From: a virus
Strand: one strand, 5' to 3'
Virus record (IMG/VR): IMGVR_UViG_3300027733_000072
Coordinates: 1 to 50,850 of that record
DNA: 50,850 bases
In this document: piece by piece, positions 3,552-39,659 of the stretch
How positions within the stretch are numbered: the stretch's first letter is position 1
Layout of the letters: each line of letters starts with the position of its first letter
Notes under the pieces: model-generated
Seen by the model: only the letters and a program-made list of their open reading frames with translations
Told to the model about the DNA's origin: nothing
The model's database searches: none
Program-made: the position numbers and the translations under genes

Positions 3552-4125
3552 TCTCTGATAGTATCAGATTGAGAGGCTTGTTTTTAAGTATTGCTTTAAC
3601 TCCAGAATTTAAGGCACCTTCATAATCAGATCTCTGACTATCCCCAATCATAAGTAATTGTTTAGGTTGTAAACCGCTATGTTTTATGACCATTTCAAAG
3701 GCTTCGGGTTGGGGTTTTCTGTATCCAATATCACAGGAAAAGAATATCTTATCAAAGTATTTATCAATACCTAAATTAAACACACACTCTTTATATGGAG
3801 TAGCAATATTTGATAATAGATAAAGTTTATACTTTTTAGATAGTGTCTCTAATACTTGAATAGTATCATCAAATAAGTGTGTTGACTCAATTTCTAATTT
3901 TATATCATGTTCTAATTGTGATGTATATACAAATTGGCCTGGTTTTATTTCTTCTACAATCTCTTGTAGATATGAATAATTTTTGGTCATGACTTTATCC
4001 GCCCAATAGTTCATTTCTTCTTTGGTTAGACCTATATTCTTAAATAAGTTTAGATAAGGTCTAGCTTTATACTCGGAGTATAATAAAGTACCATATAAGT
4101 CAAGTATAATAGATTTAGTTTGCAT
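3544..4125 (-). CDS. HAD-superfamily hydrolase
   Basis: A 193-residue HAD phosphatase/dehalogenase-type enzyme. Motif I is DLYGTLL (nucleophile D9, with Tyr at the usual second Asp, as in haloacid-dehalogenase-like members). Motif II is LLSNIA, motif III is the Lys in GYRKPQPEAF, and motif IV is MIGDSQRSDYEGA. The cap region lies between motifs I and II. Substrate cannot be read; phage HAD proteins often act on nucleotides or sugar phosphates. The start overlaps the end of the peptidase gene by 11 bp, indicating an operon. Confidence 0.85.
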   Translation of the reverse strand: MQTKSIILDLYGTLLYSEYKARPYLNLFKNIGLTKEEMNYWADKVMTKNYSYLQEIVEEIKPGQFVYTSQLEHDIKLEIESTHLFDDTIQVLETLSKKYKLYLLSNIATPYKECVFNLGIDKYFDKIFFSCDIGYRKPQPEAFEMVIKHSGLQPKQLLMIGDSQRSDYEGALNSGVKAILKNKPLNLILSEIN

Positions 4126-5209
4126 ACTCGGCGATTTTTGATAGTTTTGTATAGTCTTTACCTAATTTAACATTAGACTTCAAATGTGAATATGGTATAT
4201 ATTGTAGTTCGGGAATAAAATTTATTAAATCCTGTCTATTTCCTATAAAATCATATGACTCATGCTCTTGACAATAACAAGAAGTGCCATCCCAAATTAT
4301 TAACTTTGGTGTATATCCTTTTTGTAACAACATCTTGTTGATTAAGTCTTTTTCACACTCTATCCAAGTTTTAGATATATACATTTTTTTAGTAACACTA
4401 TCTTCTGAGATATATGTAAATACACTTTCTGTATATTCATCATCAAGAACTTCAACTTCATCTTCTTCCCAGATGCCACAATCATCATCACCTGGTTGTC
4501 TGAATATAGGAAGAGATTCCCAATCAATTTTAACAACGGCTCTACACAATCTAGATAAAAATTCAATATCTTGTATCTCATTGGTTGTGTGTTCATTCCA
4601 ATATCCAACTGATATGTTTGTACATTCATGAACTAAATCAACAAATTGTGCTGAATCCGTTAATATGCCAGTATCATCTGGTTCCATTTCTAATCCTAGA
4701 CCGGTTGAATTTAGTTCATCGGCTAATGCTTGAGCAAATTCATCTGAACAACATCTACCACAAAACTGTTCGGTAATAATTGATTTGGTGCCTCTTCGGT
4801 CAAATGAGACTACTTTTGTAATGTTCATCCAATCAAAAGTCATTGATAAGTTTGAGCTACCAATACACCCAACTTCCTCACCTATAAAAAAATAATATAG
4901 TCCTGGTACTTTTTTCTCAATCATATAGAGTAGAACGGTCATTCCGGCTTTATCATCAGCACCTAAGATGGTTGAGCCATCAGTCATTATCAGATTATCT
5001 GTTTGAACGTGTTTAACAGGCTTATCATATTTACAAGCCGTATCTAAGTGGCAAGTAAACATAGTGGTGAAATTATCACCAATTGTCATAAAATAGTTAC
5101 CATGTTGGTCTTTACTTATTCCTTTTGGTAGAAATTTTCTAATTTTAGATTCTGTTCCATATGGAACTGTCTGACTGGTCAATTGTAGGAACTTTCTTCT
5201 AACTCTCAT
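4115..5209 (-). CDS. Zinc peptidase of the M20/M28/M42 type (copy 1)
   Basis: A 364-residue co-catalytic metallopeptidase. The metal and catalytic residues are visible in order: TCHLDTA (H54, D56), GADDKAG (D85), GEE (E111, E112), SFDRR (D137) and NEHT (H207). Enzymes of this clan are aminopeptidases, di/tripeptidases or carboxypeptidases. An acidic linker (about residues 243-256) leads to a C-terminal region of about 110 residues not seen in copy 2. No signal peptide, so it acts in the cytoplasm or is packaged. A paralogue lies at 12637. Its phage role is unknown. Confidence 0.8.
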   Translation of the reverse strand: MRVRRKFLQLTSQTVPYGTESKIRKFLPKGISKDQHGNYFMTIGDNFTTMFTCHLDTACKYDKPVKHVQTDNLIMTDGSTILGADDKAGMTVLLYMIEKKVPGLYYFFIGEEVGCIGSSNLSMTFDWMNITKVVSFDRRGTKSIITEQFCGRCCSDEFAQALADELNSTGLGLEMEPDDTGILTDSAQFVDLVHECTNISVGYWNEHTTNEIQDIEFLSRLCRAVVKIDWESLPIFRQPGDDDCGIWEEDEVEVLDDEYTESVFTYISEDSVTKKMYISKTWIECEKDLINKMLLQKGYTPKLIIWDGTSCYCQEHESYDFIGNRQDLINFIPELQYIPYSHLKSNVKLGKDYTKLSKIAEYAN

Positions 5210-10469: not shown

Positions 10470-10586
10470 ATGATAAAAAAACCTGGCCATTCAATGACAT
10501 CGCCTGCAACACAAGCGGTGATAAAATTAAGAATAGTTGATATATATCAAGGGTTATCATATTTAAATAAAGTTATAAATAAATGA
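10470..10586 (+). CDS. 38-residue peptide gene coupled to NFACT-R gene
   Basis: Starts MIKKPGHSMTSPATQAVI five bases after the preceding stop and ends in ATGA overlap with the NFACT-R gene at 10583. Its main role may be to deliver ribosomes to that start codon (translational coupling). No family recognised. Confidence 0.45.
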   Translation: MIKKPGHSMTSPATQAVIKLRIVDIYQGLSYLNKVINK

Positions 10587-11656
10587 GGTATATAAAAGAA
10601 TATAATGAATATCACCCAAATGAAGATACGGTTAAGAGATGGTGTGACTATTTAGATAATAATTATCCAATCAAACATGATAGTGATAAATTTATAGTGA
10701 TAGATGATAAATCATATTTTTTAACTGGAATTTTATTTAATAAAGGTAGATTGGTCAATAAAATATTTTCGGATATATTCTATTCAGATAAAATGAGTGG
10801 TTCGAAAATAGATAGACCAAGTTTGAGAAAGGCTATTAAAAATTGGGTTGATATAAATAGTGATAAATCCGTAAATGAAAATTTAGATAAATTAAATTTT
10901 AAGCCTATTATAGAAAGTTTAAGTAATCAAAAAAAAGAATACTACTATCGAATATCAGCTCCTAAATATAATGAATCGGTTGAATATGATGAAAATCCAT
11001 ATAATATGTTAAATAAAATTCGCAATTTAATTTCACCGAGTAATCCAATTTATAAATCAGTAAATAACGATGATAATGTAATATCATTTACTGTTAATAA
11101 AAAGGTATTAGATGATTATCCTGATCGAATGCGTGGTGATGATTTAAGCATTAAGTTTATAAAGGATGAATATTTTAGAGTAAAATATATTAGTAGAAAT
11201 GCTTTTAACTTTAAGTACTTCGAGTGTGACCAATTTGAAGGTCTTATTCAGTTACTTAAAGATATGGGATTAAAATTAAATGAAAGAGTTATGGAATCTA
11301 AATTAGATAGACCAAATTATAAAAAATTGGATATTGATGGATTTATAGTATATCAAGGAAAAGACGCTAAATCAAACGATTATGTGACATTTGAATTATC
11401 AGATGATGAAGACTATTGGTTACATGCTCATAACTTCCCAGGATCACATTTATTAATAAAAATAAAAGATAAATTACCACAAATTGAAACTATTAAAAAA
11501 GTAGCTGAACTCGCTGCTAAAAACTCAAAAGCTCCTAATGGAGATGTTGTAGTAGTTTGGTGTAAAAAGAAATTTGTAAAAAAGGAAATATCAATGAATA
11601 TTGGTCAAGTAAAAGTTGATTACATTAATTCAAATAAAATAACTATTGTAAAATGA
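10583..11656 (+). CDS. NFACT-R (DUF814, RqcH-type) domain protein
   Basis: A 357-residue protein. Residues about 245-357 form an NFACT-R domain: GKDAKSND (259-266; family GRN/K-x-x-QND), YWLHAHNFPGSHLLI (278-292; family DLWLH...PGSH), AAKNSKAPNGDVVVVW and GQVKVDY near the end. In bacteria this domain is part of RqcH, which binds obstructed 50S subunits and recruits tRNA-Ala for C-terminal Ala tailing. The NFACT-N and coiled-coil parts of RqcH are absent; residues 1-240 are an unrecognised domain starting MRYIKEYNEY, which fits the head-targeting pattern. The last 20 codons are duplicated at the end of the next gene, the mark of a homing-endonuclease insertion. The tmRNA lies 3.2 kb downstream. 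Confidence 0.82.
   Translation: MRYIKEYNEYHPNEDTVKRWCDYLDNNYPIKHDSDKFIVIDDKSYFLTGILFNKGRLVNKIFSDIFYSDKMSGSKIDRPSLRKAIKNWVDINSDKSVNENLDKLNFKPIIESLSNQKKEYYYRISAPKYNESVEYDENPYNMLNKIRNLISPSNPIYKSVNNDDNVISFTVNKKVLDDYPDRMRGDDLSIKFIKDEYFRVKYISRNAFNFKYFECDQFEGLIQLLKDMGLKLNERVMESKLDRPNYKKLDIDGFIVYQGKDAKSNDYVTFELSDDEDYWLHAHNFPGSHLLIKIKDKLPQIETIKKVAELAAKNSKAPNGDVVVVWCKKKFVKKEISMNIGQVKVDYINSNKITIVK
11594..11656 (+). repeat. Recoded 3' end of NFACT-R gene, copy 1
   Basis: Encodes MNIGQVKVDYINSNKITIVK. The same peptide with substitutions is encoded at 12562-12627. Synonymous changes are frequent, so the DNA is more diverged than the protein. Confidence 0.7.
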
Positions 11657-12627
11657 ATTTTGTAGATTTTAAAATAGCATCGAATACTATATTTAATAAT
11701 AAATATGATTACACAAAGTCAATTTTCATTAATTTAAAGGTACCTATTATGATATCATGTCCAAAACATGGAGATTTTAAAAAAATGCCATATCAACATA
11801 TCAACAGAAAAAGTGGATGTAATTTATGTTATAAAGAAAATAGAAAAAATAATAAATCACATAGAATTTATTTTAAGGATATTTTAATAGAATTTAGAAA
11901 AGTGCATGGATATAAATATGAGTATAATGAATTATCATATATTAATACATTAACAAAAATTGAAATAACTTGTAAAAAACATGGTATATTCAAGCAGACC
12001 CCAAAACAACATAAAAATGGATATGGATGTCAGATATGTGGTGGTTCTAAAAAGTTATCCAATGATGATTTCATAAACAATAGTAAAAATATACATGGTG
12101 ATAAATATGATTATTCAATTACTAAATATGTAAATATTAACACAAAAGTAAAAATAATATGTAATAAACATGGTGAATTTTATAAAGTGCCAAAATTACA
12201 TTTGAGTGGAAGTGGTTGTCAAAAATGTAATATTAGTTCTGGTGAGAATTTAATATTAAATATTTTAGAAAAATATAAAATAGAGTATATCTATCAAAAA
12301 AAATTTGACAATTGTAAATTCATTAAAAGTTTATTTTTTGATTTCTATATACCTAAGTATAATATTTGTTTAGAGTTTGATGGTGAACAACATTTTAAGC
12401 CAATTGATCCGTGGGGTGGATATAAAAATTTAGATGTTATTAATAAAAGAGACAATATTAAAAACAATTGGTGTTTAGAAAACAATATAATTTTGTTTAG
12501 ATTTTCAGATAAGAAAACTTTAGAAGATGATATGATAGAAAAATTCATATTAAAAATAGGTATGAATCCTGGACAAGTTAAGGTTGATTATAACAATGCT
12601 TATGAAATAACCGTATCTAAAAAATAA
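11653..12627 (+). CDS. Homing endonuclease: DUF723-type zinc repeats plus EDxHD/Vsr-like nuclease
   Basis: A 324-residue protein. Three repeats of about 60-70 residues each have KYDY/KYEY, a C-x-K/P-K-H-G segment and a closing CxxC (C36/C56/C59, C107/C126/C129, C170/C189/C192), as in DUF723 DNA-binding ribbons. The nuclease domain has FDFYIP (D230) and LEFDGEQHF (E241, D243, H247), the pattern of Vsr-like EDxHD homing endonucleases such as I-Bth0305I. Residues 304-324 are not nuclease: they repeat the NFACT-R C-terminus. Start overlaps the upstream stop by ATGA. It uses the AT-richest codons of the area, a sign of mobility. The target is probably the intact NFACT-R gene at this spot. Confidence 0.85.
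   Translation: MNFVDFKIASNTIFNNKYDYTKSIFINLKVPIMISCPKHGDFKKMPYQHINRKSGCNLCYKENRKNNKSHRIYFKDILIEFRKVHGYKYEYNELSYINTLTKIEITCKKHGIFKQTPKQHKNGYGCQICGGSKKLSNDDFINNSKNIHGDKYDYSITKYVNINTKVKIICNKHGEFYKVPKLHLSGSGCQKCNISSGENLILNILEKYKIEYIYQKKFDNCKFIKSLFFDFYIPKYNICLEFDGEQHFKPIDPWGGYKNLDVINKRDNIKNNWCLENNIILFRFSDKKTLEDDMIEKFILKIGMNPGQVKVDYNNAYEITVSKK
12562..12627 (+). repeat. Original 3' end of NFACT-R gene fused to the endonuclease, copy 2
   Basis: Encodes MNPGQVKVDYNNAYEITVSK plus one Lys. It keeps the P-G-x-V typical of the NFACT-R family, so it is probably the ancestral end, displaced by insertion of the endonuclease gene. Confidence 0.7.
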
Positions 12628-12636
12628 TATATACAA

Positions 12637-14280
12637 GTGAAGGCAGTTTATTTGACTAAAGGAGCATTAGATATTTTTGATGAAATGGGATATTCACATT
12701 TCTTTAGAAAAATAATAAACGGTCTTCAAGCTTCAATGAATAGAAGTGATGTTCCTTCTTCACAAAGAGTGACTTTGGGAAAAGAAAATATGACTTCTGA
12801 TTTATTAAAGCAAGTTTTAGGAAATGATTATGTGAATGAAGATGATTTAGAAGCATTTGTACACATCTTCAATGAAAAGGCTAATAAAAAGGAAACAAAA
12901 AAAGAAATGGGATTTTACAAAAACCAACAAATAGAACAACAAAGTGGTCCAACTTTAATTAAGTTCACTGATGATTTCTGGCAAATGCTAGATAAGATAA
13001 GACCTGGTAGTGATATTGTTTGGGATTTATACTCTTTGGATTCTAACCCAGATATTAAAAATGTAATGGGTATTACAGAATTAGACATTTCGGATAAAGA
13101 ATGGTATTTTGATATTAAGACCGGATCTAAACCTGGTCAAATTAAAGTGGCTCAGTTTATTAGATACTTCTTCAAAGAAAAGTTTACACAAGACCAAATT
13201 TTTAAATTTACACAATCTTATAATAAAATTATTGGCAAAATATCGGGTAAAGAGTCTAAAGTTGGTAACCTAATTACACCAAGAGAGTTTAAGTACGAAC
13301 CAAGTAATGTTAGAGAAACATTTATTTCACTTGTTACCGAAACTTATCCGATGGGACATGAGGAAGAAGTTGTTCCTTTTATAACACCTGGATTAACAAG
13401 AGATAAATATGGTAATTATTACACAATAATTGGTAACTCCGATACCGCTTTTACTTGTCACCTAGATACTGCTTCTAGAACAAAAGATAAAGTTGGATTA
13501 GTTGGATATAAAAAAGATGGTCAAGATTTTATAATGACGGATGGTACTTCTATCTTAGGAGCTGATGATAAATCAGGAGTTGCTATTCTTATGTATATGA
13601 TTGATAAACAAATACCCGGTGTATATTGGTTCTTCTATGGTGAAGAAAGAGGTGGTGTTGGTTCTGGTAAAGTTGCAATGGACTATGATTCGTATGAATT
13701 TATGAAGGGTATTAAGAAAATGGTATCTTTTGATAGAAGAAATTACTATTCGGTAATCACATCACAGATGGGTATTCCTTGTTGTTCTAATGAATTTGCA
13801 GAGTCTCTTTGTAAAGAATTAAATAAAAGTGGATTGAAATTAAATTTAGATCCAACTGGTGTATTTACGGATTCTGCTAATTTTATTGATATGATTGGAG
13901 AGTGTACTAACGTATCGGTTGGTTATTTTAATGAACACACAGATGATGAATTGCAAAATATTACTTATTTAGAAAGATTGGCTCAAGCTTGTGTAGCAGC
14001 TAATTGGGATAAATTAGAGGTTAAAAGAAAGATCGGATTTGATGATGCAATTGCTAGAAAGTATAATAGATTAATCAAGCAATTTAAGAAATCAATTTTC
14101 TATAATGTTGATAGTATAAAAGGTGAGAATGGTAAATTAGTTATTGATTTAGAAATAAATGATAATGATATTAATCACTTCTATAAAGACTTAACACAAT
14201 TACAACAATTGTTTACTACATATAAATTAGATCCAGATATTAAATTCTACGATGATCATATAAAAATAGAACTTGAATAA
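12637..14280 (+). CDS. Zinc peptidase of the M20/M28/M42 type (copy 2) with two N-terminal phage modules
   Basis: A 547-residue protein starting at GTG. Residues about 220-460 are the peptidase: TCHLDTA (H275, D277), GADDKSG (D310), GEE (E336, E337), SFDRR (D366), NEHT (H434). All metal positions seen in copy 1 are kept and the two are clear paralogues. Residues 1-85 and 105-200 are two copies of a module also found at the N-terminus of the three large proteins at 18516, 22639 and 30966 (pattern: hydrophobic-T/S-x-x-F...LDKI, then DISD, then a helix with FTQDQIFKF). A C-terminal helical region follows. It overlaps the next gene by one base. Confidence 0.8.
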   Translation: MKAVYLTKGALDIFDEMGYSHFFRKIINGLQASMNRSDVPSSQRVTLGKENMTSDLLKQVLGNDYVNEDDLEAFVHIFNEKANKKETKKEMGFYKNQQIEQQSGPTLIKFTDDFWQMLDKIRPGSDIVWDLYSLDSNPDIKNVMGITELDISDKEWYFDIKTGSKPGQIKVAQFIRYFFKEKFTQDQIFKFTQSYNKIIGKISGKESKVGNLITPREFKYEPSNVRETFISLVTETYPMGHEEEVVPFITPGLTRDKYGNYYTIIGNSDTAFTCHLDTASRTKDKVGLVGYKKDGQDFIMTDGTSILGADDKSGVAILMYMIDKQIPGVYWFFYGEERGGVGSGKVAMDYDSYEFMKGIKKMVSFDRRNYYSVITSQMGIPCCSNEFAESLCKELNKSGLKLNLDPTGVFTDSANFIDMIGECTNVSVGYFNEHTDDELQNITYLERLAQACVAANWDKLEVKRKIGFDDAIARKYNRLIKQFKKSIFYNVDSIKGENGKLVIDLEINDNDINHFYKDLTQLQQLFTTYKLDPDIKFYDDHIKIELE

Positions 14281-14789
14281 TGAAACTAAAAAACTATAAA
14301 GAACTTCTAAATGAAGAACGCGGAGAAGAGGATGAATTTGATAATACATCAGATAGCTCTGATTTTGGTGATAGTGAATACTATGGTGGGGAAGATGAAG
14401 AGTCTATGTATGATGATGAGAATGATTATGATGACGAAGATGAAGAAGACTACGCTCGTAGAGACAATGATCCAACATCCGATGATGTTTTAGAACATTT
14501 AGCTTCTTTAATTAGGCAAATGATTAAGTTGGCTAATATTGAGAACTATTATGTTACTACTGATGGATATGATTTAAGTATTCAGTTTGTTTTGAACAAA
14601 ACTGAGAGATTTAATAAATTAATGAAAATTATGGGTTTATTGAAGAAGTTAACAACTGATACACTTATTCAATATGAATCCGAAATGGATTTATGGGAAA
14701 CTAAAGAAGGTCATCCATTATTAACTGTTGATTTTTACTATGATAGTAAAAAGAGTGGTTCATTTAAGAAAGATGATGTTCCATTTTAA
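14280..14789 (+). CDS. Acidic hypothetical protein with head-targeting-like N-terminus
   Basis: A 169-residue protein. MKLKNYKELLNEE fits the N-terminal pattern of T4 internal head proteins, with E at the expected cleavage place. Residues 14-65 are an extreme run of Asp, Glu, Ser and Tyr. Residues 70-169 form a compact alpha/beta domain (IRQMIKLANIENYYVTTDG). Such an acidic stretch could mimic DNA or keep the protein unfolded. Starts on the last base of the peptidase stop codon (TAATG). Confidence 0.65.
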   Translation: MKLKNYKELLNEERGEEDEFDNTSDSSDFGDSEYYGGEDEESMYDDENDYDDEDEEDYARRDNDPTSDDVLEHLASLIRQMIKLANIENYYVTTDGYDLSIQFVLNKTERFNKLMKIMGLLKKLTTDTLIQYESEMDLWETKEGHPLLTVDFYYDSKKSGSFKKDDVPF

Positions 14790-17215: not shown

Positions 17216-17900
17216 TTCAGAATTATTAAAATTAGGAGTGTTGGATAAAAGACTCCCGGTATCACAGAAAATACAAGTATCTATGTCTATCACTAGAGAT
17301 GAAATGGTATCACTTCAAAACGCATTTAATCTAAAATTAGATATTGATGCGAAATATAATTCTTTATTGTTACAAGAATTGTCTCAATCATTTCATAAAG
17401 AAATATTTAAGGAAATGAATTCCACAGAAGAATTCTTAGATGTTATGAATTTATCTGAATCAGATGGTGTGAATGTACTTTATCATTATTTAACAGAAAA
17501 TAACTTTGATTTTATCATTTGTTCATCTCAAATTGGAATGTTTGCTCAAGAATCTGTTTTATTCCACAATGAATCTATAAATAAGGTAAGTAATAGTAAT
17601 ACTTTTTATAAATTAGGTGAAATTGAAGGTATATCTGTTTATATAGATGCTTTCAAGCGATGGGATGATAAGACAATCATTTGTGGTAAAGAAGACTCAT
17701 TTAATTATAATTATGATATTGATGAACCGGTGGCTTCAAATATTACCACTACTTCGTTGAGTGGGCCGAAATTTATATCACAATTAAATTATCAAATTGT
17801 TTTAGATAAAAATAACTTTATTAATCTTCATTATGTGAATGAATTTAATGCTAAATATGTTCAAATTAATAGAGATAGAAAATTAGATGAATTATTATGA
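17205..17900 (+). CDS. Hypothetical protein, possible capsid-fold domain
   Basis: A 231-residue protein. The segment FDFIICSSQIGMFAQES (about 99-115) followed by GEIEGISVYIDAFKRWDD and TIICGKEDSFNYNY resembles the part of phage capsid proteins in which an S-x-x-I/L segment is followed by a GxxVYVDP-like strand and an ICG strand. That would suggest a minor head protein, but the link is only a pattern seen by eye. Its stop overlaps rpiB by ATGA, an odd partner for a structural gene. Confidence 0.6.
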   Translation: MQINSELLKLGVLDKRLPVSQKIQVSMSITRDEMVSLQNAFNLKLDIDAKYNSLLLQELSQSFHKEIFKEMNSTEEFLDVMNLSESDGVNVLYHYLTENNFDFIICSSQIGMFAQESVLFHNESINKVSNSNTFYKLGEIEGISVYIDAFKRWDDKTIICGKEDSFNYNYDIDEPVASNITTTSLSGPKFISQLNYQIVLDKNNFINLHYVNEFNAKYVQINRDRKLDELL

Positions 17901-18334
17901 TTGCAATTGGATCTGACCATGCTGGTTATGAAATGAAAGAAGCCTTAATTAATTGGATTTCCGAACAAGGAATCCCTGTAATTGATTTTGGACCGGAATC
18001 TACTGAAAGTGTAGATTATCCAGATTATGCACACGCTGTTACTGCCTCAATTTTGGATGAAGAATCTGTTATTGGTATTCTAATCTGTGGCACTGGAAAT
18101 GGTATTTGTATGACTGCGAATAAATGGAGAGATATTAGAGCTGCTCTTTGTTGGAATAGTGAAATTGCTTCACTGGCTAGACAACATAATAATGCTAATG
18201 TTTTGTGTTTACCTGCTAGATTTATTTCAATTGAAGAAGCAATTGGAATAGTAGAGGTATTTTTAGACACTGAATTTGAGGGTGGTAGGCATGAAAAAAG
18301 AGTTGATAAAATCAACCCTTCTATATCTATTTAA
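17897..18334 (+). CDS. rpiB: Ribose-5-phosphate isomerase B
   Basis: A 145-residue RpiB/LacAB-type isomerase, normal length. Seen: IGSDHAGYEMK (D7, H8), ILICGTGNGICM (catalytic C64), RQHNNANVLCLPAR (H97) and FEGGRHEKRVDKI. It interconverts ribulose-5-phosphate and ribose-5-phosphate, feeding ribose for nucleotide synthesis, which fits the phage's own thyA and nrdA. Rare in phages. Coupled to the previous gene by ATGA overlap. Confidence 0.93.
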   Translation: MIAIGSDHAGYEMKEALINWISEQGIPVIDFGPESTESVDYPDYAHAVTASILDEESVIGILICGTGNGICMTANKWRDIRAALCWNSEIASLARQHNNANVLCLPARFISIEEAIGIVEVFLDTEFEGGRHEKRVDKINPSISI

Positions 18335-18515: not shown

Positions 18516-20099
18516 TTAACTACATTCTGGACAATCTACTCTACCTGATCCGTCACAATTATTACATTCTTCTCTACAATTTCCTCCGCAATTATCACAG
18601 TTATTTCTACCGTTACCACCACACTCATCACATTCTTTCTTACCTTCACCATCACAAGATGTGCATTCAATTTTACCTTTACCATCACAGTCTGAGCAAT
18701 CATCATCACCATCTTTTCCGGTGCCATCACAAGATGAACATTCTTCTTCTCCTTCACCATCACAACTTGAACAATCTACTTTACCATGTCCATCACATTC
18801 ACCACATTCAATATCTCCATCACCATCACATTCTGAACATGGGAAATCACCATCACCTTCACAATCTGGACAATCTACTCGATTATCCCCACCACAATAG
18901 TCACACTCATCACTATTAGAATAACCACCACCGGTGTCTTCTAATAAATAGTAATCACCCATTGATTCGGTAGATAATGTTCCACTATCTGGATTATAAT
19001 ATTTAAGAGTATCTAAATAAGGATATTTACGATACCCACCTTTACCAACTTTAACCACTAATGTTCCCATTCTAACAACTGAACCATCTGGTGAAACCAT
19101 ATCATTACTAGTCATGTGATTGTTATTTGGCTTATAGTACCAACCTTTAGACTTAGCGTATAATCTAAACAACTCAACATCAGACTCATTGTGTGTGTAG
19201 ATTCTATCCATATAAGTAATTCCTTCAGGTGATTTTAATTTCCAAACTAAAGCTCTACCTTTTATCTTTTGACCATCTTCTGTTTTGAGTATTAATAATT
19301 CGCAAGAATCTTGATTACTTGTATAAATCTCAAAGAAACTTGATGATACACCAGACATACAAGATCCACTTAAAGTGCCTTTATTTCTCCCTAATTCATA
19401 ATTATTATAGTTATACCAATGAGCAATATCATCACCTTTTACTAATTCAAAATATCTAAAAACATCATTCATTTTTTCAATTTCAGCTTTGAAAAGGTTA
19501 ACAAATTTTTCTATATCACTATCTGTAAAAGTAGCACCACCGGCTGTTAAGAGACCTTTAATTCCTCTACCAATTCTTATTTTCTGACGACCTTGTGTAA
19601 ATGGTAATTTACTTACATCTTCATATTTAATTTTTTCCTGGTTGATAACTGATATACCATCTGGAAATTGTATTTTAAGATATGTTTTTCCAGATGATGG
19701 TCCAACTGCTTTCGATAAAACCTCACCTTTTGTTCCTACTTCTGGTCTGTACATTCTATCACCAGTTGGTTGATAGTCTAATAAGTTGAATATTGCTGCA
19801 TTCGATGGACCGTGTGTTAATATACCACCATCGCCATTATAAATAGCAAACTTTTCTAAATTTTCAGGACTTAATATTTGTTGAGCTCTTCTATCTGGTA
19901 TAAAAGAAATTTGTTCTTTATCATCAGATACATCAATATAGTTATTAGCTACAGTTAAGTCTTTACTTTCAATATCTTGTAAAGCTTTAGCTATTGGAGA
20001 ATCTATTTCTTTGAGTAAATTCTTAAATTTATCAGAATAAATCAAAGTAGATTCTAATAATAACGATTCAAATAAAAAGTCTTTGTATTTCTTTAGCAT
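18516..20099 (-). CDS. Large phage protein of the GTL-x-SCM family with long DnaJ-like cysteine array
   Basis: A 527-residue protein. MLKKYKDFLFESLLLES is a head-targeting-like start. Residues about 14-200 contain the module shared with the proteins at 12637, 22639 and 30966. Next comes the family core VKGDDIAHWYNYNNY, GTLSGSCMSG, FEIYTSNQD, RALVWKL and YMDRIYTHNESD. The C-terminus holds twelve CxxC motifs, mostly in the C-x-x-C-x-G-x-G form of the DnaJ zinc finger, which normally has four. The core may be enzymatic (conserved W-Y, S-C-M, R-A-L-x-W, D-R-I-Y) but no known fold is recognised. Probably a packaged, zinc-binding protein. Confidence 0.75.
   Translation of the reverse strand: MLKKYKDFLFESLLLESTLIYSDKFKNLLKEIDSPIAKALQDIESKDLTVANNYIDVSDDKEQISFIPDRRAQQILSPENLEKFAIYNGDGGILTHGPSNAAIFNLLDYQPTGDRMYRPEVGTKGEVLSKAVGPSSGKTYLKIQFPDGISVINQEKIKYEDVSKLPFTQGRQKIRIGRGIKGLLTAGGATFTDSDIEKFVNLFKAEIEKMNDVFRYFELVKGDDIAHWYNYNNYELGRNKGTLSGSCMSGVSSSFFEIYTSNQDSCELLILKTEDGQKIKGRALVWKLKSPEGITYMDRIYTHNESDVELFRLYAKSKGWYYKPNNNHMTSNDMVSPDGSVVRMGTLVVKVGKGGYRKYPYLDTLKYYNPDSGTLSTESMGDYYLLEDTGGGYSNSDECDYCGGDNRVDCPDCEGDGDFPCSECDGDGDIECGECDGHGKVDCSSCDGEGEEECSSCDGTGKDGDDDCSDCDGKGKIECTSCDGEGKKECDECGGNGRNNCDNCGGNCREECNNCDGSGRVDCPECS
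18525..18905 (-). repeat. Tandem coding repeats for CxxCxGxG units
   Basis: Near-periodic DNA of about 24-39 bp units (CATCACA, GTCCATCACA and similar on the plus strand), each encoding one C-x-x-C-x-G-x-G unit of the gene at 18516. Expanded by local duplication; coding, not CRISPR. Confidence 0.75.
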
Positions 20100-21819: not shown

Positions 21820-22584
21820 TTATTTAAATTGTTTATCATATGCTTTTCTTCTTACATCCATAATTCTTTGGATATATCCATTTCTTCTCAATAACTTGAA
21901 AACTAAATTCTCAATTGAGTATTCTCCTTCTCTATCTAAACCAGCTTGTCTACCATCTTTAACTTTTTTCCAAACTTTTTTAAGTTTTTTCATCAATTCA
22001 TCATATTCAACACCTGATTCATAATCCTCTTCTAATTCTTTAACCGTAGTCATAATATCAGAAGCTTTCTTTCTAATTAAATCTTCATCTGGTGTAAAAT
22101 CTTCTTTGCTTGGTTTCTTAATCCACTCATCATTTAATAATGAGTAAACACCACCCATTCTACCACCTTCAATAGCACCGTGTAGATCTTCCTCATCTTG
22201 AACAGCAATTTCCACATCAAATCCTTTGATTATAATATCATGTTGTTCATTCCAAACTTTCTTTGCGTAATCTACCATTTTTTCAACTAATTCGTGGTCT
22301 TCATTGATATCATCAAATTTAACAATGATGTGTAAATCAACATCACTATATTCTGACCAATTGTAGTTACATAACGAACCACAGAAAGCAATATCTACAA
22401 TTTTAGCAGATAGTTCTAATCCTTCATAAAAGTCTTCACCAATTCTAATTAGTTGTTCTCTAATCTCTTCATTCAATTTATCATTATCATCCCAAACATC
22501 ACGGTTTAAGTCATCTTTAAGATAAAAAGATTTAATTGGTTCAAATTGTGCTTGAACAAAATATTCATTGAACTTTTTAAGCAT
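21820..22584 (-). CDS. Nucleotidyltransferase (Pol beta superfamily) with head-targeting-like N-terminus
   Basis: A 254-residue protein. CGSLCNYNWSEYSDVDLHII has G69, S70, D81 and D83, the GS-x(10)-D-x-D signature of Pol-beta-type nucleotidyltransferases; FDVEIAV (D123/E125) can supply the third acid. Such enzymes add nucleotides to RNA, antibiotics or proteins. The start MLKKFNEYF fits the head-targeting pattern, so it may be injected with DNA. The C-terminal helical region is rich in Lys and Arg. The gene is read from a palindromic promoter region shared with the gene at 22639. Confidence 0.8.
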   Translation of the reverse strand: MLKKFNEYFVQAQFEPIKSFYLKDDLNRDVWDDNDKLNEEIREQLIRIGEDFYEGLELSAKIVDIAFCGSLCNYNWSEYSDVDLHIIVKFDDINEDHELVEKMVDYAKKVWNEQHDIIIKGFDVEIAVQDEEDLHGAIEGGRMGGVYSLLNDEWIKKPSKEDFTPDEDLIRKKASDIMTTVKELEEDYESGVEYDELMKKLKKVWKKVKDGRQAGLDREGEYSIENLVFKLLRRNGYIQRIMDVRRKAYDKQFK

Positions 22585-22600
22585 AGTTTCTCGGTGGATA

Positions 22601-22622
22601 ATTTTAATATATATATTAAAAT
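22601..22622. promoter_or_regulatory. Palindromic, bidirectional late-promoter-like element
   Basis: A perfect 22 bp palindrome: ATTTTAATATA followed by its reverse complement. It presents the TTTTAATATATA element on both strands between two divergent genes (starts at 22584 and 22639). Confidence 0.6.
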
Positions 22623-22638
22623 CAATACACTTAAAATT

Positions 22639-24651
22639 GTGATTAAAGGTTATTATCAGTTTTTATTGGAATCTGTTCTATTTACTTCTGGATATTTCGA
22701 AGAAATATTGAAGAAAATTGACGATAAAATCGCCCAAGATTTTTTAGAGTTAGTTAATAAAGACATTAAAACTCAGTATAATGCCATAGACCTATCAGAT
22801 ACTAATGATAGATTACATTTTGTATCAGATAATCAATTTCAAAATAAAATAAAATCTGGTATTAATCCTTTAGATTTATTCTCGGATAAAAATAATAAAA
22901 CTAATATATCCAGAATTATTAGACAGATTCTCAAAGATAATGGTAAAGAATACACTGATGCCGAATTAAGTAAGTTTGTTGATAAATTCAAAGCTGCTTA
23001 TAATACACTTAAAGCTAAAAAGGAAAAGAAAGACCCAATCAGATTGGTTAAAGGTGAGGATATTAGATTTTGGTATTTAGGTGATAATTATTGTGAAAAA
23101 ACATCAAGTGGATATGGCACACTCGGTAAGTCTTGTATGAGATATGAAGAGTGTCAAAAATACTTAGATATTTATGTTGAAAATCCTAGTGTTTGTAATC
23201 TTTTAATATTAACTAAATTTGAAGATGGTGAAGAAAAACTTGTGTCAAGAGCTTTACTTTGGCAAACTGATAAAGGACCATATTTAGATAGAATTTATTA
23301 TACCGATTCTTCTGAAGAAGAAATGATGTTGAATTGGGTTAAGGAAAAAAATTGTGAATTATCCTTTAAGAAATATTCTGGTAGACTTATAGTGCAGTTA
23401 GAGAGTGATACTAAAGAATATAAATATTATCCGTATATGGATACTATGCCTTATTATTATACAGTGAATAAAAAGCTGTATAATTATGAGCCGAGTGTTG
23501 ATGTTAAAAGAGAACTTTTATACTGTCAAGATACTGGTGGTGGTTTTGATAGGCAGAATCTAGTTTATTGTGAGTGGATAGATGAATCTTATCCAGAAGA
23601 AGAAGTAATTTGGTCAGAGTATCATCAGTCTCACTTACCTATGAATAATTGTTGTTGGAGTGAATATCATAATTCAGAAATATGTGATGGAGATAGTGTT
23701 TATTCTGAAACTTTATCAGATAACTTACCAAAAGATGACTCTGTTGAAGTTTATATAAGTTCAAGAGATACAGATTGGTTTCCAAAAGATCATGATTTAA
23801 TTGCTGAAGATGAAATGGATGGTAGTTGGTACTTGAAATCACTTATGAAAGAAATAAATGGTAGATGGTATCATAAAGACTATGTGAAATGTGTTTATGA
23901 GGTTAAAAAATCTGATATATCAAGATATAAAGAAATATTCTCAATTGATGATGATGTTGAAAATGAAGATTGTATAGCTACTTCTGATCTTATTAAGTTC
24001 TATCAATTAAGTATAAAAGATGATTCTACTCAATTTATTTTAATAGATGATTATTATAAAAAAGTTTATATGAACGTGCATTATGTTGAAATGTTAAAAT
24101 CATTAGAAGAAAAAGAAAGTTCTGATGATGTTATAGAAGAATTGGAATCTGCAAACTTTAGACTAAAAGATAGTCAAAATTTCTATTCTAATAATAATAC
24201 AATAATTGATAATGGTGGATTTAGTAATGCACTAAAAATATTTAATGACTCTTTGGATATTAAAGTAAAAGGCAATAACACTATATTTGATTTGGCATTT
24301 TTATCAGCTGAGAATATTTATAGAAATCATGTTCAATCAAATTTACTAAAAGTACAAATTAAAAAAATATTTGAGAATTCACTAATTGAATTTTGTGAAG
24401 GTGTTAGTGAGTATAATACAAAATATCCAAGTTTTGATAAAGATAGATTATCAAAATTCATTAAGATGTTTGAGATAGTATTTCCAGAATATAATGATGA
24501 AGATGAAATCAATTATTATCTACAGATGACTTCTGCTACCTTAGAATATTCCTTTAGATTAATCTATAATGAAATAAAAGGTAAAGAATTTTCAATTATT
24601 CAGGCACTTAGATATTTTACTAAAAATCCAAACAAACTACCAGTAGAATAA
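22639..24651 (+). CDS. Large phage protein of the GTL-x-SCM family
   Basis: A 670-residue protein, GTG start chosen because it follows the promoter element and yields MIKGYYQFLLES, matching the other family members. Shared N-terminal module (FTSGYFEEILKKID, AIDLSDTND, YTDAELSKFVDKFK) and core (VKGEDIRFWYLGDNY, GTLGKSCMRYEE, IYVENPSVCNLLIL, RALLWQT, YLDRIYYTD). The middle contains beta-hairpin repeats with SEYHQSHLP, SEYHNSEI and similar. The last 200 residues are helical. No known enzyme family recognised. Expressed from a late-type promoter with a head-targeting start, so probably a packaged protein. Confidence 0.75.
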   Translation: MIKGYYQFLLESVLFTSGYFEEILKKIDDKIAQDFLELVNKDIKTQYNAIDLSDTNDRLHFVSDNQFQNKIKSGINPLDLFSDKNNKTNISRIIRQILKDNGKEYTDAELSKFVDKFKAAYNTLKAKKEKKDPIRLVKGEDIRFWYLGDNYCEKTSSGYGTLGKSCMRYEECQKYLDIYVENPSVCNLLILTKFEDGEEKLVSRALLWQTDKGPYLDRIYYTDSSEEEMMLNWVKEKNCELSFKKYSGRLIVQLESDTKEYKYYPYMDTMPYYYTVNKKLYNYEPSVDVKRELLYCQDTGGGFDRQNLVYCEWIDESYPEEEVIWSEYHQSHLPMNNCCWSEYHNSEICDGDSVYSETLSDNLPKDDSVEVYISSRDTDWFPKDHDLIAEDEMDGSWYLKSLMKEINGRWYHKDYVKCVYEVKKSDISRYKEIFSIDDDVENEDCIATSDLIKFYQLSIKDDSTQFILIDDYYKKVYMNVHYVEMLKSLEEKESSDDVIEELESANFRLKDSQNFYSNNNTIIDNGGFSNALKIFNDSLDIKVKGNNTIFDLAFLSAENIYRNHVQSNLLKVQIKKIFENSLIEFCEGVSEYNTKYPSFDKDRLSKFIKMFEIVFPEYNDEDEINYYLQMTSATLEYSFRLIYNEIKGKEFSIIQALRYFTKNPNKLPVE

Positions 24652-29206: not shown

Positions 29207-29468
29207 ATTTTGTTATTGGATCTTTTTTATCTGGTGTATAATCTTGTTTATATGGCTCCCTTTTGAAACTAACACCGTGTTTTTGTTTTGTCTTACAGGA
29301 TTTACATCCACAATCACATTCTTCTACAACACAATTACATTCTGTACAAGGAACACCAATTCCTATAGTATTAGCTGCATCAGAGTCTTCACCAAATTGG
29401 TCTAAGAAGTCTTTAGTTTCATCTTCGGTTGACTTAGAAAAACTCTCAAAAGTTCTTAGATGTTTCAT
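29205..29468 (-). CDS. Small cysteine-rich protein with head-targeting-like N-terminus
   Basis: An 87-residue protein. MKHLRTFESFSKS is the targeting-like start. Cysteines cluster in VPCTECNCVVEECDCGCKSC, probably binding zinc. The tail is basic and polar. Its start shares a base with the stop of the next minus-strand gene, which has the same start type, so the two form a unit of small packaged proteins. Confidence 0.65.
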   Translation of the reverse strand: MKHLRTFESFSKSTEDETKDFLDQFGEDSDAANTIGIGVPCTECNCVVEECDCGCKSCKTKQKHGVSFKREPYKQDYTPDKKDPITK

Positions 29469-29761
29469 TACTTTTTCTTTCTAGCTTCAATTGCTTTTCT
29501 CAATCCTTCTGGAAGTTTCTTTTGAGCTGCGGTTAATTTGGCAGGCTTTTCTGACTTACTATCTTTCTTTTTGTCAGCAGCTGCTTTTTTCATAGACTCT
29601 TTCTTATTACCGTCTTTATCTAAGTCTAAGAAATCTGGCTTAGCCTTTTTAGCTTCATTTGCTTTTTCAGCTTCGTCACATTTACATTCAGATAGTTTGC
29701 AATCACATTCTTTGCACAATTCTTCTTGTTTGTAGTCTTCAAATAACTTTAAGTATTTCAT
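29468..29761 (-). CDS. Small basic protein with head-targeting-like N-terminus
   Basis: A 97-residue protein. MKYLKLFEDYKQEE is the targeting-like start with E at the cleavage place; CKECDCKLSECKC follows, and the rest is rich in Lys and Ala (SMKKAAADKKKDSKSEKPAK), resembling a histone-like or T4 internal-protein-like DNA-condensing tail. TTTTTAATATATA lies upstream on the same strand. Confidence 0.7.
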   Translation of the reverse strand: MKYLKLFEDYKQEELCKECDCKLSECKCDEAEKANEAKKAKPDFLDLDKDGNKKESMKKAAADKKKDSKSEKPAKLTAAQKKLPEGLRKAIEARKKK

Positions 29762-30965: not shown

Positions 30966-33218
30966 ATGAAATTAGCGCGTAAATATAGTGATTATTTAGT
31001 ATATCAGTTGTTGGAATCTGTTATGGTTACATCAAGAGAATTTAAGAGCATTATACATGATATGCCAAATGGTGATAAGATAGCTGATATTTTATACAAT
31101 ATTATTGATGATAAAACTGATATTAAAACTAATTACAACCTAATTGATGTTGATAAAGAAAAGAATGATGAGGTTTCATTTTTACCAGATAATCAATATC
31201 AAAGGTTTATAGCTAAAGGTGATGATGTTACCACCAAAACTAAAGGTAATGCTAAAATTGGTAGAATGATTAATCAGATTCTTAAAGATAATGGACATAC
31301 TCAATTTAAAGATACTGATGTTGAAAAATTCATCAATAATTTCAAATCTACTTGGAATAAAAAACACGGTATTGTAAATCGTAAAACTGAAGTTGTTAAA
31401 GGTAAAGATATTTTAAAATGGTATGATGTGAGTAATTATAACTCTACCAATGGAACTTTAGGTAGTTCTTGTATGAGATATGAAAAGGTTAATCACTTTA
31501 TGAATATTTATGCTGAAAATCCAGATAAAATATCAATGGTAATTATCACAGATGAGGGTAAATTAGTAGCTAGAGCACTATTTTGGGTATTGGATGAAAC
31601 ATCACAAGGTAATAAAAAGTTTTACTTAGATAGAATCTATACAGAACAAGACTCTGATTTTCAATTCTTATTTGATTGGGTTGTTGATAACTTATGTAAT
31701 AAAGATCCAAAGATATTAGCATCACATAAAAATTCGGAAAATCAATATGAGATGAAAGTTTTCTTAAATAAAGTTAATTTTGAACATTATCCATATGCTG
31801 ATAGTTTCAATTATTTATATGAAAAGATTGATAAAGAAGGAAAAATTTTAGGTAATGGATATGTTTCCAATTTTAATCATTATGATGATAAAGATATCAC
31901 AAGAAACTATTCTGTATCTGAAATTAGAAATCATAATGAGGGATTACCAAGTAGATTAAGTCATGTATTCTCAGAAAAGCTAAATATATTTATTCGTAAA
32001 AGAGAAGCCATAAGAGACAGTGAAGCTGGGTGGATTCCAAAATCTATGTGTAAAAAATGTGAATTTTTGGATGAGTGGATATATCAAGATAATGCAGTTT
32101 GGTCAGAATCAATGCAAGATTGGATTGATAAAAGACAAGCGGTAGATACTAAAGAATTTGGATTAATACATAGAGATGCAATAATTAAAGTTGCAACTAA
32201 ATATATTGGTGATTATTTACATCCAATTGACTTTATGTCGAAATTAGAAAGTGGTGTTAATCTATTTGAAATAGAAACAAAGTTGAAGTCTAATGATTGG
32301 AAGAGACCAGAGTATAGACTTGGTGGTGAAAGATATTACAGTGATGATTTAGTGGTAAAGGATATTTGGAATGAATGGCAAATTAAACAAGGATGTTTTG
32401 AACTTTTTGATTGTGGTCAATATGATGATGTTATGCCAAAAGTTGGCAACTTCACTGGATTGGTAAAAGAAAAAAACGGCAAAGCATATCTTCTTAAAGA
32501 AGATGCTGTTTTATTTGGATTGACTCCTGGTAATAGTGATAAATGGATTAGTGTAGTTGATCTTAAATCATTTTATGAAACTTTAAACTATACGGAGTTT
32601 ATGAAATTTGTAGATGCTTCGGATATTGACCAATCTACTAAAGATTCAATTATTGAGACTAAAACAAAGTTTCATGAGTATTGGTTAGAAAATTCATCTG
32701 GTTATACAAGAAGATTTGAAATTTATAGTAAGATGAGTGGTGTAGATGGTACTGATTTATATTTGAAGCTTTTTGATTTAGTTTGGAAAAAATTTATGAC
32801 AATTGATGAATCTATTAATCTTGAAATCCTTTCAAGATTTGAAAATTACAATTTAACCGATGGCCAAGTACAACTAGTGTATGAAATATTATCTGGATTA
32901 ACATTAGCTTTTATAATTTATGATGATACTAGTGACTCAAGAGGTATGGTTAATGATTGGTTGAAATCAGAAAAGGCTACCAATTTCAGAGATAGAATTA
33001 GTAATATACGTGACCGTGATGGTGATATATCAGGCATCTACTTTTCAGATTTTACTGAAATTTGTAGAAAGATATTTAGAAATTATATTGATGATTTACG
33101 TGGAGATATTAGAGTTGTTTCAGATGAAATGGCTAGAGAGTATAACATAAGTAGAGACGGATTTATGTCATTTATTAGTAATTCAATTTCACTTAGAGAT
33201 TTAAATCCTTACATATGA
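30966..33218 (+). CDS. Large phage protein of the GTL-x-SCM family
   Basis: A 750-residue protein, largest of three paralogues. MKLARKYSDYLVYQLLES is the targeting-like start. Shared module: VTSREFKSIIHDMP, LIDVDKEKNDEVSF, FKDTDVEKFINNFK. Core: VKGKDILKWYDVSNY, GTLGSSCMRYEKV, IYAENPDKISMVII, RALFWVL, YLDRIYTEQDSDF. The C-terminal half differs from the paralogues and contains CKKCEFLDEWIY and repeated WIPK/WSES hairpins. Function unknown. The stop overlaps the next start as ATGA. Confidence 0.75.
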   Translation: MKLARKYSDYLVYQLLESVMVTSREFKSIIHDMPNGDKIADILYNIIDDKTDIKTNYNLIDVDKEKNDEVSFLPDNQYQRFIAKGDDVTTKTKGNAKIGRMINQILKDNGHTQFKDTDVEKFINNFKSTWNKKHGIVNRKTEVVKGKDILKWYDVSNYNSTNGTLGSSCMRYEKVNHFMNIYAENPDKISMVIITDEGKLVARALFWVLDETSQGNKKFYLDRIYTEQDSDFQFLFDWVVDNLCNKDPKILASHKNSENQYEMKVFLNKVNFEHYPYADSFNYLYEKIDKEGKILGNGYVSNFNHYDDKDITRNYSVSEIRNHNEGLPSRLSHVFSEKLNIFIRKREAIRDSEAGWIPKSMCKKCEFLDEWIYQDNAVWSESMQDWIDKRQAVDTKEFGLIHRDAIIKVATKYIGDYLHPIDFMSKLESGVNLFEIETKLKSNDWKRPEYRLGGERYYSDDLVVKDIWNEWQIKQGCFELFDCGQYDDVMPKVGNFTGLVKEKNGKAYLLKEDAVLFGLTPGNSDKWISVVDLKSFYETLNYTEFMKFVDASDIDQSTKDSIIETKTKFHEYWLENSSGYTRRFEIYSKMSGVDGTDLYLKLFDLVWKKFMTIDESINLEILSRFENYNLTDGQVQLVYEILSGLTLAFIIYDDTSDSRGMVNDWLKSEKATNFRDRISNIRDRDGDISGIYFSDFTEICRKIFRNYIDDLRGDIRVVSDEMAREYNISRDGFMSFISNSISLRDLNPYI

Positions 33219-38734: not shown

Positions 38735-39523
38735 TTATAAAGAAGCTAAAAACATTTCGCTTTCTTTTTCTCTTCTGGTTTCTAATCCTGGGAATTTTTT
38801 ATTTAAGTTGTAATCTCTTATTGAGTCACCGGCTAACTTCAATTCACCTTTTTTGATTTGTTGTATTAGTTCTGATTGTCTTAAACTACCAACACCAGAG
38901 TTAAAAGCTAATGATACTAAAGCATCAAACATACTTTGTGATATTTTCACGTCTATTCCTCTTTCATCCCACTCTTGGAATATTCTTCTTACACCATCGG
39001 CTGCTTCTTTTAAATCTTCCTTTAAGTATTTATCAGCCTGAGTTTGTGTTATTTTTTGACCTTTTCTTAATTTAGTTTTACCGATATCTTCAGCATGTCC
39101 ATATCCAACAGTGACTTTTCCATCACCAATTGTATAAGCTTTTAATACACACTTTTCTTCACTTTTGATATGATTCCAACCTGCCTCGGAAAGTCTAAAT
39201 TCATATCCAGGTTTGAAAACCTCTTCTTTGTTGACTTTTTCTTCAGCCATTTCTATTGCAATTTCCTTATCTTCTGGTGATGCGTTAGATGTATTAATTA
39301 TTTGAATAACATTCGTTATGGTATTGAAAACTAAGAGTGTTCCGACAGCATATTTAATCAACTTTTTTCTACCATCTGCAGAAAGACCTTTTAGTTTACT
39401 TACAATGTTATCCCAAATAGATTTGTTATCTGATGACTCATTAATAGATAAATTGATATAGTCAATAGTTTGTTGAATTATTAATTCTTCATTGAATTGT
39501 TTATAGTTTGATAAATGTCTCAT
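38735..39523 (-). CDS. Lysozyme (GH24) with membrane segment and head-targeting-like N-terminus
   Basis: A 262-residue protein. MRHLSNYKQFNEE is the targeting-like start (ATG at 39523 preferred over 39544). A hydrophobic segment (YAVGTLLVFNTITNVIQII, about 58-76) could anchor it in a membrane. Residues 106-262 are a GH24 muramidase: E123 in SEEKCVLKAY and T138 in VTVGYGH are at family positions. The middle catalytic residue (D or C, nine after the Glu) is I132; D134 may replace it. It cuts peptidoglycan. Such a layout suggests a virion or signal-arrest lysin rather than a free cytoplasmic endolysin. No holin was found beside it. Confidence 0.82.
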   Translation of the reverse strand: MRHLSNYKQFNEELIIQQTIDYINLSINESSDNKSIWDNIVSKLKGLSADGRKKLIKYAVGTLLVFNTITNVIQIINTSNASPEDKEIAIEMAEEKVNKEEVFKPGYEFRLSEAGWNHIKSEEKCVLKAYTIGDGKVTVGYGHAEDIGKTKLRKGQKITQTQADKYLKEDLKEAADGVRRIFQEWDERGIDVKISQSMFDALVSLAFNSGVGSLRQSELIQQIKKGELKLAGDSIRDYNLNKKFPGLETRREKESEMFLASL

Positions 39524-39659
39524 AAATGTATATATTATTTTCACTTTTCACTTTTTATAAAAGTAATCTATAAAAAATCCACCCTTGAAAAAATACAAAT
39601 TTTAGTGTTCATATATATCATTACAAAAAAATAATTAAAAAATTAAAACTTTTTTAATT

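Follow-up and report, generated by a model that had tools for sequence, protein, structure and literature searches.

Bacteriophage T4 packs its internal proteins by means of a targeting sequence of 10-20 residues that is removed by gp21, and one of these proteins is injected and inhibits a host enzyme (PMC3012670, PMC5694885). The NFACT-R domain is known chiefly for binding RNA and associating with ribosomes, and algal viruses have NFACT-R proteins too (PMC11467894). Within partial coverage of the literature, we found no report that connects NFACT with huge phages, or NFACT-R with a phage or with an internal head protein.

Here we describe an NFACT-R gene in a window of 50,850 nucleotides. The window is the entire virus record IMGVR_UViG_3300027733_000072 and is therefore probably a piece of a larger genome. 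We propose, with moderate confidence, that the gene belongs to a T4-like huge phage with LR745206 and LR756502 as relatives, and that its product is a late, head-packaged internal protein from which a protease would free a basic, nucleic-acid-binding NFACT-R domain. The features of the locus are as follows (a slash marks a putative cut).

10574..10581, + strand: TATAAATA, late-promoter-like box, 9 nt 5' of the ATG (from the sequence)
10583..11656, + strand: NFACT-R gene, 357 aa, ATG start, read as encoding a capsid-targeted polyprotein (ORF and Pfam)
10583..10609, + strand: capsid-targeting-like start MRYIKEYNE, residues 1-9, with a possible cut after E9 (alignment to family starts)
10610..10915, + strand: orphan unit A, residues 10-111, ending IIE/S (no homologue found)
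10916..11296, + strand: unit B ("CDQ module"), residues 112-238, ending VME/S (module relatives in L058 and L125-L128)
11297..11653, + strand: predicted mature NFACT-R, residues 239-357, 119 aa (Pfam match, E238, charge and model)
11653..12627, + strand: homing-nuclease-like ORF, inserted; its final ~22 codons are a repeat of the 3' end of an NFACT-R gene
12637..14280, + strand: M28/M20-like metallopeptidase, whose position downstream of NFACT-R is fixed in the clade (synteny)
14280..14789, + strand: acidic protein with the capsid-targeting-like start MKLKNYKELLNE, the next conserved neighbour (synteny)

Identity of the NFACT-R domain

A Pfam search of the window protein placed NFACT-R_1 (PF05670) on residues 251-344 (E=1.8e-11; 45 bits, curated cut-off 29.8 bits), and a phmmer search of PDB sequences matched the NFACT-R part of B. 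subtilis RqcH (E=3e-9). A profile built from the phage family matched RqcH (2e-21) and human CCDC25 (2e-10). In an AlphaFold2 model the domain had a pLDDT of ~92-98 and its Foldseek partners were RqcH, FbpS and CCDC25; algal-virus NFACT-R proteins were also among the structural neighbours. These searches and the model agree that the protein carries a true NFACT-R domain, which a preliminary description made from the sequence had placed at residues 245-357. The nucleic-acid-domain motifs G[KR]DA.SND and W.H....PGSH are kept in the phage family, and the predicted mature form of 119 residues has a pI of 9.2, a charge of +4.7 and a model pLDDT of 84-98. Phage NFACT-R sequences formed their own monophyletic clade in a tree (support 0.79). 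The tree did not tie the phage domain to a particular bacterial group, the sister of its clade being a long-branch guess.

NFACT-N (PF05833) was found by Pfam search neither in the window protein nor in ten related phage records that include the 635- and 642-kb genomes, and at thresholds up to E=10 residues 1-240 had no Pfam match. The model of residues 1-240, which was of fair confidence in unit B only and poor in unit A, had no Foldseek match to a solved fold at E<=0.001. The HhH, coiled coil and M domain of RqcH were likewise not found before NFACT-R, where the 238 residues consist of an orphan unit and the CDQ module. An NFACT-N-like identity for the first ~240 residues was rejected on the Pfam, related-record and fold searches, and the earlier suggestions that NFACT-R stands here without NFACT-N, and that the preceding part does not look like NFACT-N, were both supported. 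Because NFACT-N is absent, the protein is not an NFACT/RqcH protein.

The window also encodes a Fpg/Nei-like DNA glycosylase (1931-2749). We considered this H2TH gene as a source of NFACT-N in trans and rejected it, as LR745206 and LR756502 have NFACT-R and no H2TH match; H2TH matches were also obtained in the L022 and L053 records. Elsewhere in the window are genes for a TROVE/Ro60-like protein with a vWA domain (40215-41666; E=1e-19) and ribose-5-phosphate isomerase B (RpiB/LacAB; 17897-18334; E=7e-59).

Distribution and gene order in huge phages

Using tblastn against a phage collection, we identified homologues in two genomes, LR756502 of 642 kb and LR745206 of 635 kb, each with a single NFACT-R copy. 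When the full-length window protein alone was searched against IMG/VR, nothing was returned; an alignment search gave 56 loci at 46-66% identity. The usual family member is 127-138 aa long and consists of a targeting-like start, [SG]KK and NFACT-R. The genes recur in the order protease/scaffold, major capsid protein, NFACT-R, peptidase and acidic targeted protein, often followed by NADAR-like and Dam genes. The peptidase gene lies 3' of NFACT-R in all 56 IMG/VR relatives and the capsid gene 5' of it in 54, the exceptions being L011, where the contig ends, and L058. In Pfam searches the major capsid protein of the relatives matched Gp23 (E=3.7e-28), and their protease was S77-like at E=5e-4, below the Pfam cut-off. 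Both are known from the relatives and not from this 51-kb fragment, in which no capsid gene was found. The window retains the downstream part of this arrangement, except that a nuclease gene has been inserted behind NFACT-R.

This homing-nuclease-like ORF (11653-12627) directly follows NFACT-R, and the NFACT-R end that it repeats, GMNPGQVKVDYNNAYEITVSKK, resembles the tail of the L058 gene about as closely as the window's own tail. The arrangement looks as if the nuclease had inserted near the 3' end of NFACT-R and the target gene had kept or regained its end.

The window peptidase (12637-14280) had no Pfam match of its own, and a paralogue at 4115-5209 gave a weak match to Peptidase_M28 (E=0.002). 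When the search was started from the peptidase, NFACT-R was present in 78 of 80 loci, the other two having too little upstream flank to tell, so that NFACT-R is universal in the clade (78/78 testable peptidase loci). NFACT-R is a core gene in phages that are among the largest known. Al-Shayeb et al. assign all of their genomes above 634 kb to the Mahaphage clade, for which Bacteroidetes hosts are predicted (PMC7162821), and we infer that LR745206 and LR756502 belong to this clade.

These hosts bear on the earlier proposal that the protein may compete with RqcH. An injected or late decoy could compete with RqcH on the 50S-peptidyl-tRNA complex and block alanine tailing of stalled chains; its domain is identical in kind to the NFACT-R of RqcH and, with NFACT-N absent, it could be a dominant-negative fragment. 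However, in RqcH itself the tRNA is contacted by NFACT-N and HhH and the 50S subunit by the coiled coil and M domain, while NFACT-R lies near the A-site finger and has poor resolution there (PMC8012679). In a published survey, rqcH was detected in 404 of 1,956 FCB-group genomes, only about one fifth (PMC11633108), yet the phage gene is universal in its clade. The 635- and 642-kb genomes gave no S4/RqcP-like match, and a Bacteroides control genome matched neither NFACT-R nor NFACT-N. The role is possible and unsupported: the gene looks late, and no observation links the protein with RqcH or the 50S subunit. We consider a decoy very unlikely.

The N-terminal region

Residues 1-240 had been described as a new N-terminal domain. 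The region is indeed foreign to NFACT proteins, but it is not a single domain: the targeting-like start is followed by unit A and then by unit B, a module. For unit A (residues 10-111), no homologue was found in Pfam, the PDB, phages or IMG/VR; invertase-like matches to residues 59-104 were short and weak (E about 0.01-1) and were judged to be chance. Unit B matches a module that is repeated five times in an 886-aa protein of L058 (1705-4365), encoded ~1.6 kb upstream of the L058 NFACT-R gene, and a module profile detected it in L125-L128 as well. The profile scored the window region at 2e-30, with the window sequence itself part of the profile; in pairwise comparisons with shuffled sequences, z was about 6 to 9 for five of seven members and 2 to 3 for the remaining pair. 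We read nine module proteins, every one of which has a targeting-like start; among the proteins read the module is confined to those with such a start. The 886-aa protein, with its five CDQ modules and several Phi-x-E/S sites, looks like a larger head polyprotein.

L058 is the nearest relative of the window sequence, and the two are sisters in the tree. Its NFACT-R protein has the short form, MKYLKTYNE/SKK followed by NFACT-R, whereas the window protein reads MRYIKEYNE, ~230 residues, VME/SKLDRP and NFACT-R. Judging from this alignment, the N-terminal part of the window protein was inserted behind the targeting start and ahead of NFACT-R; it is optional, absent from most family members and probably cut off. 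We suggest that the window gene arose by fusion of three capsid-targeted genes with their protease sites retained. Other extensions are ~150 aa long in L006-L008 and ~100 aa in L001, L009, L022, L032, L033 and L059; in all of the latter except L001, an internal ATG may be the real start.

Targeting-like starts and putative cleavage sites

Alignment of the relatives revealed a common start pattern, M..[YF]..F.E/[SG]KK, examples of which are MKYLKTYNE/SKK, MIKKYKLFKE/GKK and MKYLKYFE. The head-targeting-like start noted earlier in the window protein is therefore real and a family-wide pattern; by sequence pattern only, it qualifies as a short N-terminal capsid-targeting peptide. The first predicted site in the window protein is YNE/Y, in place of the usual E/S or E/G. 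Both unit junctions have the form Phi-x-E/S (IIE/S at 111 and VME/S at 238), and a third such triplet, YNE/S at 131, lies inside unit B. E238 is nearly invariant in the family and stays aligned behind three kinds of N-terminal extension. We regard these Phi-x-E sites as putative prohead-protease cleavage sites. Outside the NFACT-R domain, nothing in the family is as constant as the targeting-like start and the protease-like site.

This constancy stands against a cytoplasmic tRNA- or ribosome-binding factor that would be made late for phage tRNAs or stalled ribosomes and whose start merely resembles a targeting signal, as does the association of unit B with the same kind of start. Such a factor would suit an RNA-binding family that also occurs in algal DNA viruses, and huge phages have many translation genes (PMC7162821); even so, we think this explanation highly improbable. 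A prohead structural or morphogenesis factor, that is, a core or scaffold helper built on the NFACT-R fold and without function in the next host, would account for the head-type start, the universal presence in the clade and the fixed position beside the capsid gene in relatives. Conservation of both nucleic-acid-domain motifs and the basic character of the domain speak against it, and we judge it rather unlikely.

Targeting-like starts were also frequent elsewhere. In 300 kb (half) of the LR745206 genome, 55 of 365 ORFs had one, compared with about 15-16 expected from internal segments. This count (positions 1-300000; L062-L076) suggests a large head-packaged proteome. A loose motif test on the window alone was weak (8 of 48 ORFs vs 2.7 expected). 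Further window ORFs with targeting-like starts are 18516-20099, which has Cys-rich CxxCxG repeats, 38735-39544, a phage lysozyme, and 22546-24651, 29468-29761, 30966-33218 and 44063-45007.

Upstream promoter motif

The T4 late promoter is TATAAATA, and the motif upstream of NFACT-R resembles it, with TATAAATA at -9 of the ATG in the window. TATATA occurs 8-14 nt 5' of the NFACT-R start in 27/27 related genes examined, and between the capsid gene and most of these boxes lies a terminator-like hairpin. From this motif, the NFACT-R gene looks to be expressed late.

In LR745206, a AATATATA box within 45 nt upstream of the ORF was associated with the targeting-like start (29 of 55 vs 64 of 310; odds ratio 4.3, P=2.6e-6). 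The gap between this late-type box and the ATG (LR745206 1-300000; NFACT-R genes of L002-L058) was bimodal: either about 4-6 nt, the class favoured by targeted genes, or about 20 nt. The short-gap class would give nearly leaderless mRNAs.

Proposed role in the phage head

Our proposals for the packaging, cleavage, ejection and ligand of NFACT-R are drawn from these sequence features. Late in infection, the NFACT-R polyprotein would be made from its own promoter and carried into the prohead by its N-terminal start. The prohead protease would then cut after Phi-x-E at E9, E111 and E238, which would shed the targeting peptide, release units A and B and leave a free, basic NFACT-R of 119 residues. 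Free NFACT-R would bind nucleic acid, which in the virion would most likely be the packaged DNA; once ejected along with it, the domain might bind tRNA, rRNA or DNA in the new host. CCDC25, a structural relative of the domain, has been solved with dsDNA; a DNA-bound phage NFACT-R is nevertheless a guess, because the domain is best known for binding RNA and associating with ribosomes.

By analogy with T4, mature NFACT-R is probably ejected with the DNA. Injection, which had been raised for this protein before, is plausible given the start, the protease-like sites, the adjacency to the capsid gene in relatives and the late-type box. Against the packaged reading, the capsid gene is not adjacent to NFACT-R in either the window or L058.

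A broader proposal, which we put forward tentatively, is that the largest known phages pack an RQC-type NFACT-R as a core, protease-released head protein, which would enter the host together with the genome to act on tRNA, ribosomes or incoming DNA, and that in some lineages it is made as a multi-unit polyprotein. If true, a domain of ribosome quality control would be a core component of the megaphage head, and NFACT-R alone would appear to have a useful nucleic-acid-binding function outside RQC. For huge uncultured phages, the combination of targeting start, inter-unit protease-like sites and late box would make it possible to predict which proteins are packaged or injected using only the sequence.

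Comparison with known systems

RqcH, Rqc2 and NEMF share with the phage protein an NFACT-R domain with the W.H....PGSH core, but the phage protein lacks NFACT-N, HhH, coiled coil and M domain and has a predicted mature part of only 119 aa. In stand-alone NFACT-R proteins (CCDC25, the bacterial proteins of ~130 aa as in L077, and those of algal viruses), NFACT-R is likewise the sole recognised domain. The bacterial forms, found in a few bacteria, differ in that they coexist with RqcH-sized proteins and have no targeting start, and the phage sequences fall in a clade of their own. The T4 internal proteins (IPI, IPII, IPIII and Alt) have no sequence likeness to phage NFACT-R in their mature parts, and the window form differs further in its extra units with their own sites. 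Their short N-terminal targeting peptide, prohead-protease-type Phi-x-E site, basic mature domain and Gp23 head have counterparts here in the targeting-like start, the putative Phi-x-E sites, the predicted basic mature domain and, in relatives, a T4-like Gp23 head. By its signals, the phage NFACT-R protein thus looks like a T4-type internal protein.
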